DNA of 64,000 nucleotides from Haloplanus sp. HW8-1. Lineage in GTDB: Archaea > Halobacteriota > Halobacteria > Halobacteriales > Haloferacaceae. Position 1 is the first letter of the stretch; the number at the start of each line of letters is the position of its first letter. The DNA is taken from the NCBI RefSeq assembly GCF_023703795.1, contig NZ_CP098518.1:3162001-3226000 (forward strand), in the 5' to 3' direction. The position numbers and the translations under genes were made by a program. The notes below the pieces were generated by a model that was not told the DNA's origin, did no database searches, and saw only the letters and a list, made by a program, of their open reading frames with translations. This document shows, one piece after another, positions 35,840 to 38,312 of this stretch.

Positions 35840-36122
35840 ACAATACCACGGGGGGCGCGGCGACCTAAGGGTGACGCCCGACGAGGGATCGTTCGGAGAG
35901 TCGCGACCTCACCGCCTCCCGTCGTGTCAACACCGGCCGCGTGCGACCTCGGGGTCCGGACGGTCGTCCTCGTCTTCGAGCATCGTCGCTCGAAGAGGGC
36001 AATTTATCGACGGAGTACGGAACCGTATCACGCAGGGACTAACGGCCGGTTCATCGTTTCGAACGCACTTCCCCCTCATCCCGTGGTCGACTCTACCATC
36101 TAGCCACCGGATCCGCCAGGCA
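35840..36122. other. Gene-free spacer before the HD-domain gene
   Basis: I see no gene. G+C drops in its second half toward the HD-domain gene. No inverted terminal repeats or integrase fragment were found, and the sequence does not match the spacer on the other side of that gene. Confidence 0.5.
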
Positions 36123-37724
36123 TCAAACCACCTCCCAACAAATGTGCACTTGGTGCATCGGATCCTTCTTCTCTACCATGCCACTGACTACCATGCCTTC
36201 TGACTTAAATTCACCGGCAATCTCCCTCACCAGTCCTCCGTTCTGTCTCTCCTCTCGACATCGTACGTTCTCGATTTCCAACGGTTCGGGATAACGGATC
36301 TCGAATTCTACTTCACCTGCGTTTCCGGTCACGATATACACCTCCTCCTCCTGTGGGAACAGTTTCTCCCAGTCGTATTCGTACGTATACGTGTATTCTT
36401 CGTTTGCCTCCAGGGTCTTGGGAAACTTGATCTTGAACCGCTTGTTGTTCGGCCGGTCGATCAACTCCTCTACCTGTAGCGTCCGATCACTTGCGTCGTA
36501 TACCCGTAGATCGCTTTCCCAGTCCCACTCCATCGGATTATCGAAGCTACGGACGAAATGCGTCCGGTCGTAATCCTCCTCCAGCAGTTTCATCGTCGTC
36601 TCTCTGGACACGGTAGCGTCGCCCTGCCGGTTCCGAACTTGGATGCTCCACTTGTTGCGTATATCGTGGAAGTTCGATATTTGTCTCTCACGGATGGACT
36701 CGCTTTCCTGACTCAGTCGTTCTAGGTGCTGTTCACGACCACTGATCCTGATACTGTGGTCGACGGCTGTCCGGTGATCACTTTCGACTACGATGTCGGT
36801 GAGATGAAATTTGAACGGCTCTCCGGCGATGATCTCCTCGATATCCTTATACTCGTCGTACAGATGTTCGGCCTTCATCTCCAGCAGATGTCGTTCCCGC
36901 TCCGAGCTGTGATGAGCTTTGATGGTCAGCTGACGGTCAACTCCATCCAATTCGATACCTGTGATAAGTTGACAGACCTTCCAGTGTTTCTGACTCTCTT
37001 CCGGAAGCGACTGGAGGTAACTACTGATCTCCGGTGCTCGCTCCTTGCCGATATCCAGAGCATCGGCAAACTGGAGGAGAGCCGCGAGGTCGCGGAGCGC
37101 GACCTCATGGCGAACCGACGATTCGTCTACGACGACCGATTCTTCCACCCGGGTGGTATCAGCCCGGCGTCGATGGGCGCGGCATAGCTCCGCGATATAC
37201 TTCGACAAATAGTAGTCGTCGAGGCCAAGTCGATCGGCGTTGTTTCGAACGAAGTTCCAAGAGAGGATGTGGTGCCACTTGCGGATGAGGTCGTCATCGT
37301 CGATCGTCCGATCTTCCTCTTCGGTCGTTCCGATCTCGTGGAACCACTCCGTTCTGGTATCCTCCCCGATAGAGATCTGGCTGGTGGATATCTTTTCGTT
37401 GATGCTCATCCCGATGTCGTGAAGCCACGAAGCAGCCGCCAGCAGGAACTTTTCGGTTTCGTTCAATTCGATGTCGTATTCTATCATCAATAATGTTATG
37501 TTTCCGAAGATCCGCTCGGTGTGTCGCGACCCGTGATCGTTGAAATATCGGTTGTGAGCGGGGATCTCTTCGAGTCCCTCCTTGATTTCCTCGACGAGCG
37601 TCCGATACCGGTTCCCGTAGACCGACATGAACGACTCGTGGAAGGTGACGACCCTGTCGGCGATCTGTGTATCCCCGAAAACACCACTGAGCCACCTTCG
37701 AACGTCATCCTCCGTTTGATTCAT
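36123..37724 (-). CDS. HD-domain protein resembling HD-CE conflict-system proteins
   Basis: A protein of 533 residues. The N-terminal 300 residues are an HD-type domain: FNDHGSRHTERIFGNI (His64, His68), then LLAAASWLHDIGMSIN (His102-Asp103) and later RAHRRRA and LLQFADALDI. This resembles the HD-CE type described in biological-conflict systems. The C-terminal 180 residues look like a beta-sandwich (NKRFKIKFPKTLEANEEYTY). G+C is about 50 percent by eye, far below its neighbours, and AT-rich codons are common, so recent transfer is likely. The ATG at 37724 has GGTGA upstream; a GTG at 37733 is the alternative. It stands alone. Confidence 0.75.
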   Translation of the reverse strand: MNQTEDDVRRWLSGVFGDTQIADRVVTFHESFMSVYGNRYRTLVEEIKEGLEEIPAHNRYFNDHGSRHTERIFGNITLLMIEYDIELNETEKFLLAAASWLHDIGMSINEKISTSQISIGEDTRTEWFHEIGTTEEEDRTIDDDDLIRKWHHILSWNFVRNNADRLGLDDYYLSKYIAELCRAHRRRADTTRVEESVVVDESSVRHEVALRDLAALLQFADALDIGKERAPEISSYLQSLPEESQKHWKVCQLITGIELDGVDRQLTIKAHHSSERERHLLEMKAEHLYDEYKDIEEIIAGEPFKFHLTDIVVESDHRTAVDHSIRISGREQHLERLSQESESIRERQISNFHDIRNKWSIQVRNRQGDATVSRETTMKLLEEDYDRTHFVRSFDNPMEWDWESDLRVYDASDRTLQVEELIDRPNNKRFKIKFPKTLEANEEYTYTYEYDWEKLFPQEEEVYIVTGNAGEVEFEIRYPEPLEIENVRCREERQNGGLVREIAGEFKSEGMVVSGMVEKKDPMHQVHICWEVV

Positions 37725-37750
37725 TACCTTCACCTAACACTTGCGCTCAG

Positions 37751-37758
37751 TATAAAAA
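37751..37758 (-). promoter_or_regulatory. TATA box of the HD-domain gene
   Basis: Minus-strand TTTTTATA lies 27-34 bp before the ATG at 37724, and a Shine-Dalgarno-like GGTGA is found 7-11 bp before it. Both are stronger than at most native genes here. Confidence 0.6.
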
Positions 37759-38021
37759 GTCCGGGCGATCGACCCCACCGAGTAACGGTTGAACGTGTTT
37801 TCCGCTCACTGAACGGATCGTACGGAGAGAGTTCGGTGGTGCTCTCCGGACGCTCGACCACGATTTCCTTCGGAAGACGCGGTCGATGGCGGTTGGGGGC
37901 CGACCACTTCTACCGTCACCGTAATCCACGGCGACGTGTCGATCAACGACACGCAGTGACAGTCGATCCTGCCGGGCGCCCACCCGGTGCGGATCCACGA
38001 CCCCCGGAAACGGGGTCGGCG

Positions 38022-38312
38022 TCACTCCGCGTCGGGCTCCGGCGCGTAGATCCGCATCGCGTCGGTGGTGATCGTCACCGGGTGGCCGTAAAGTTCGAGT
38101 GTCGTTCGGATCGGCGCAGTTCGCGACTTCCGAAAGAGGTTCCGAAGCGCGTCGACGTCGACAGTCTCGTGGAACGGGGTGTCCCGTTCCATCACGTCGA
38201 TGCCGACCCGGTCGAAAGCTCTGGCCAGCGCTAGTTCGAGCGCCTCGTCGGATTCGCGGTCGTACGTCGCGAGCGTGCGTCGGTCCGTGAGGGGCTGGGA
38301 CTGGGATGGCAC
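38022..38312 (-). CDS. Stand-alone HalOD1 output-domain protein
   Basis: A protein of 96 residues consisting of little more than a HalOD1 domain: ALELALARAFDRVGIDV, then FHETVDVDALRNLF, then TLELYGHPVTITTDAMRIY. HalOD1 is the haloarchaeal output domain otherwise found behind receiver and PAS domains; its biochemical role is unknown. I place the start at GTG 38312 because TATA-like ATTCATTATGG (minus strand, 38343-38353) lies about 31-41 bp upstream. An ATG at 38381 would sit inside the photolyase promoter. Confidence 0.7.
   Translation of the reverse strand: MPSQSQPLTDRRTLATYDRESDEALELALARAFDRVGIDVMERDTPFHETVDVDALRNLFRKSRTAPIRTTLELYGHPVTITTDAMRIYAPEPDAE

Follow-up and report, generated by a model that had tools for sequence, protein, structure and literature searches.

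HD-CE domains (Pfam PF24391) recur in conflict-like proteins across bacteria and archaea, and no described biochemistry was found for them. Among HD folds in general, the hydrolysis of signal nucleotides is frequent, and residue sets like H..H..HD..R..H..H..D are used by HD enzymes to build a metal centre. A literature search on HD-CE and PF24391 returned nothing relevant, including no source stating a link between HD-CE and biological conflict, and we know of no enzymatic activity reported for HD-CE proteins. The link to conflict systems invoked in the original prediction, for which a published source was thus not found, rests here on the architectures and gene neighbourhoods of relatives, which agree with it and make a conflict role for the HD-CE domain plausible.

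A scan of genome contigs with a pattern derived from the HD-CE alignment recovered 75 relatives in many phyla. Several kinds of additional domain are found in the 51 full-length relatives, including an HSP90-like ATPase (HATPase_c_3, in 23), TPR_12 (in 8) and NACHT (in 3); the first member of this set carries nSTAND3, and AAA NTPases, IF-2B-like and SEC-C parts also occur. A Pfam match to IF-2B was obtained for four of the 51, and the C-terminal part of L102, L109 and L135 looks IF-2B-like. Moreover, 27 of the 51 match the PADLOC model for the defence reverse transcriptases UG24 (RT_UG24, PDLC03762). In the four strong alignments that were inspected (L154, L129, L157 and L107), the HD-CE domains of the relatives lie opposite model positions ~698-911, in its C-terminal third, so that an HD-CE domain seems to be part of the model, which may then also match proteins other than reverse transcriptases.

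Two contexts of relatives were noted. First, the two other clear haloarchaeal HD-CE genes, from different families of the order, reside in a conserved four-gene cassette with genes for an ORC-CDC6-like ATPase (PF24389), a CARF6 protein and a C5 DNA methyltransferase (L066:8712-13767 and L067:5592-10783; GC ~48-50%). Only 3 of the 392 genomes examined in the order were found to encode PF24389, and the cassette looks like a defence system. Second, the virus contig IMGVR_UViG_3300031898_000278 encodes a 584-residue HD-CE protein (L207:4818-6572) between the gene for a probable major capsid protein and head genes that come later, the identity of the head genes being read from translations. Of the NTPases and effectors that were to be sought around homologues, NTPases are present, as NACHT/nSTAND and HSP90-like fusions and as the ORC-CDC6-like partner of the cassette, and CARF sensors and methyltransferases accompany HD-CE as well.

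The window, that is, the whole 64-kb stretch of the Haloplanus sp. HW8-1 genome that was analysed, contains the HD-CE gene at issue, an intact open reading frame of 533 codons on the minus strand (36123-37724; ATG at 37724, stop at 36123). As originally noticed, this gene is markedly richer in AT than its surroundings, with a GC content of 53.1% vs. 68-69% in neighbouring genes. The 1-kb windows across it constitute the GC minimum of the 64 kb (0.52, the next lowest value elsewhere being 0.63), and it ranks last in GC3 among the 42 called genes (0.667, against a mean of 0.863 with an sd of 0.049). It is the most AT-rich gene of the window. Its codon-position GC pattern (0.59/0.34/0.67) and the Pfam HD-CE match over residues 60-285 (E=7.7e-30) together indicate that it codes for protein. 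The strong promoter and ribosome-binding signals of the original prediction, a TATA-like box TTTTTATA (37751-37758, minus strand) and a Shine-Dalgarno-like AGGTGA located 5 nt before the ATG (37730-37735, minus strand), can both be read directly in the sequence. Nevertheless, transcription directed by TTTTTATA would begin just a few nucleotides ahead of the start codon, and the two motifs cannot both work as drawn. The encoded protein is acidic (pI 4.9, D+E 21%), as expected for a halophile, which suggests that the donor was probably also a halophile, or else that the gene has resided for a while in its present lineage.

Membership of the HD-CE family, proposed from resemblance, is clear. The HD-CE domain (residues 60-285; 36870-37547, minus strand) matches PF24391 with 104.9 bits, a score far in excess of the curated 27-bit cut-off. 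The expected HD site is there as well, with an HGSRH motif (residues 64-68; 37521-37535, minus strand) providing the first histidines of a probable metal site, followed by the HD doublet H102-D103 (37416-37421, minus strand). H64, H68 and the doublet are conserved in at least 90% of 56 HD-CE sequences, and the doublet is invariant in the 51 full-length relatives. In fact, all of the residues that are near-invariant in the family (H64, H68, H102, D103, R148, H151, H184, D221 and R229, in the numbering of the window protein) are retained. The protein differs from the relatives found in that identity over the domain is ~31% or less (31% for the best long match), its C-terminal module matches none of theirs and it sits on a long branch of its own.

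The AlphaFold2 model, built from 56 sequences, has a pLDDT of ~90 over most of residues 20-300, with lower values in a loop near residues 110-140. When the N-terminal model was submitted to Foldseek, the nearest solved structure was domain III of an exopolyphosphatase (3rf0, E=1.3e-3, probability 1.00), Ppx chains aligning at 12-14% identity, which is a distant likeness; weak matches to cyclic-nucleotide phosphodiesterases came next. A sequence search of the PDB gave chance-level matches only, and a fold search against viral proteins gave nothing at E<=0.001. The Pfam scan returned HD-type families only, including a weak, sub-cut-off match to domain III of Ppx/GppA with the other Ppx/GppA domains unmatched, and no HATPase, P-loop NTPase or TPR domain. 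The protein shares with the HSP90-like and NACHT/nSTAND-TPR fusions an N-terminal HD-CE domain followed by a different C-terminal module, but it belongs to neither group. The HD-CE part is a probable metal-dependent nucleotide phosphohydrolase, with residues of the kind from which HD enzymes build a metal centre, which would probably be a two-metal one.

The remainder of the protein is far less tractable. In the AlphaFold2 model, a long helix (residues 330-356; 36657-36737, minus strand), which also appears in an otherwise useless single-sequence model, lies between the HD-CE domain and a C-terminal domain (residues 354-533; 36126-36665, minus strand). The latter had been described as a beta-sandwich of unknown type; it is indeed predicted to be beta-rich and has no family match, but the structural prediction is of low confidence, with pLDDT mostly below 50. 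A Pfam search with residues 354-533 gave no match above chance, and chance-level matches only were obtained for this domain in 392 haloarchaeal genomes. The C-terminal ~180 residues represent either a fast-evolving version of a known fold or a new domain. A motif common to this region and the virus-borne L207 protein, [FY]EY.W...F, was considered as a sign of homology and rejected, as shuffled sequences scored equally high in 119 of 500 cases.

Comparison with congeners reveals how the gene came to its present place. In two of them (G006 and G007), the site is empty, with 70-77 bp separating the flanking aldo/keto reductase and HalOD1/photolyase genes where the window has ~2.15 kb (35870-38021). 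At the same place, G002 carries genes for a carotenoid oxygenase and a photolyase paralogue (names read from the sequences and not derived from Pfam); a matching photolyase-paralogue stretch occurs in G005, and the carotenoid oxygenase in G001 and G010. In the window, a decayed, frame-shifted fragment of the photolyase paralogue, which is whole in a congener, persists on the plus strand at 37887-38025 (tblastn E=1.4e-9; DNA 77-79% identical over ~125 bp to two congeners). On the other side, a possible 3'-end remnant of the carotenoid oxygenase gene, whole in congeners, lies at 35956-35991 on the plus strand (blastn 84% over 37 bp, E=2.7e-4; weaker at the protein level, with E=0.025 only). The presence of the paralogue remnant and of the possible oxygenase scrap at the borders indicates that the HD-CE gene replaced lost ancestral genes. 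The acquired stretch bounded by these remnants (approximately 36065-37886) comprises the gene and its promoter with little room for anything else, in keeping with the view of a lone gene. Short inverted repeats at the borders were examined as candidate element ends and rejected, because one arm belongs to sequence that is also conserved where the site is empty, and repeats of this sort are frequent in the region.

The distribution is sporadic. Among 12 genomes of the genus, the HD-CE gene occurs only in that of the window; above cut-off, the domain is found in 3 of 392 genomes in the order and in 2 of 170 in the family. Frequencies are higher in other parts of the phylum (47 of 393 genomes at E<=1e-8 in a phylum-wide sample, haloarchaea included). 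Protein searches covering 60 related genomes, genome contigs, viral contigs, phages and plasmids recovered no close relative. A quickly built tree places the window protein at the end of a long branch, without trusted neighbours; its clustering with the HD-CE proteins of the two other haloarchaea (SH-aLRT 94) was set aside, having been flagged by the program as a case of long branches meeting. The window gene thus does not belong to the haloarchaeal core, nor to a housekeeping HD family. Homologues that are core genes in all haloarchaea and a clear match to a housekeeping HD phosphohydrolase had been named beforehand as refuting the original prediction, and neither was found, the Ppx domain III match lying below cut-off. 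We conclude that the gene is a horizontally acquired single-gene module.

Its surroundings in the window are ordinary metabolic and repair genes, namely those for an aldo/keto reductase, a HalOD1 protein, a photolyase and a SAICAR-synthetase-like protein, and no defence gene adjoins it. The window protein has no match in PADLOC 2.0.0 at E<=10, RT_UG24 model included, and no reverse transcriptase part, which sets it apart from UG24. Likewise, it resembles the L066/L067 cassettes in being an HD-CE protein encoded by AT-rich DNA in a haloarchaeon, but the HD-CE proteins of the cassettes are 342-359 residues long, lack a C-terminal domain and have three partners. The window gene stands alone, with none of the three partner genes beside it and no ORC-CDC6-like PF24389 protein encoded in the genome. 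The conflict role of relatives does not transfer automatically to the window gene, for which defence would be inferred by association. Of the single-gene defence or signalling module originally proposed, the acquired, non-core single gene stands; defence is suggested by association, next to ordinary neighbours and without a PADLOC match.

The explanation that we favour, although we give it slightly less than an even chance, is that of an acquired one-gene HD-CE nucleotide phosphohydrolase under C-terminal control that takes part in conflicts with viruses or other elements. The HD-CE part would hold a metal centre, probably with two metals, and act on a nucleotide by hydrolysing one of its phosphate bonds. 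The beta-rich C-terminal part would sense a trigger, or keep the enzyme off until the trigger is met, and the triggered enzyme would then remove a nucleotide needed by the invader or by a signalling pathway. Such a one-gene conflict effector would follow a logic comparable to that of dNTP-removing or signal-removing defence enzymes. Membership of the HD-CE family, the intact residues, the likeness of the model to Ppx domain III and, weakly, to cyclic-nucleotide phosphodiesterases, the sporadic acquisition, the conflict-like builds of relatives, their matches to the UG24 model, the cassettes and the virus-borne relative all support this explanation. Conversely, the lack of an adjacent defence gene, of a PADLOC match and of an ORC-CDC6-like partner weighs against it, as does the orphan C-terminus, whose lack of relatives makes the sensing role a guess. 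A bolder version, in which an undescribed beta-rich C-terminal domain senses infection and switches on the HD-CE nucleotide hydrolase as a stand-alone one-gene archaeal antivirus system, appears unlikely.

Among the alternatives, the best survivor, possible yet still on the unlikely side, is that the protein degrades signal nucleotides as a phosphodiesterase so as to regulate or terminate a response, either as a ring-nuclease-like off switch or as a remover of Ap4A-type dinucleotides, and not a killer or starver. The general propensity of HD folds for signal nucleotides points in this direction, as do the phosphodiesterases among the weak model matches and the association of the two haloarchaeal relatives with a CARF6 gene, CARF6-kind domains being binders of cyclic oligonucleotides. 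However, the genome of the window has no Csm1 above its cut-off and no SMODS nucleotidyltransferase, and no gene for the synthesis of a signal nucleotide was found near the HD-CE gene. CARF6 also gave no match in this genome, in a search whose control likewise matched nothing.

That a virus or another mobile element left the gene stranded in the chromosome as its cargo, whether as an accessory or a counter-defence gene, is improbable. A single-gene insert and the HD-CE protein of similar size encoded between head genes of the virus contig would fit such an origin, but no integrase, transposase, viral gene or convincing terminal repeat was found within the insert, the window protein has no match in 50,697 phage and 72,556 plasmid records, and its C-terminal part is not demonstrably related to that of L207. 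Finally, an ordinary metabolic or stress phosphohydrolase acquired by chance (for polyphosphate, pppGpp-like compounds or nucleotide clearance) is more doubtful still. The structural and weak sub-cut-off Pfam likeness to exopolyphosphatase domain III speaks for it; against it stand the absence of the other domains of a full Ppx/GppA phosphatase, the sporadic distribution, and the NACHT/nSTAND and HSP90-like fusions of relatives, which are unlike housekeeping enzymes.

Of the readings considered, that of a one-gene phosphohydrolase engaged in conflict thus remains the one we prefer. As a stand-alone haloarchaeal HD-CE protein without partners, the window protein would be the simplest member of the family in which to ask what the substrate is and whether there is a role in defence, and the four-gene cassette opens the same HD-CE question in a second, richer setting.
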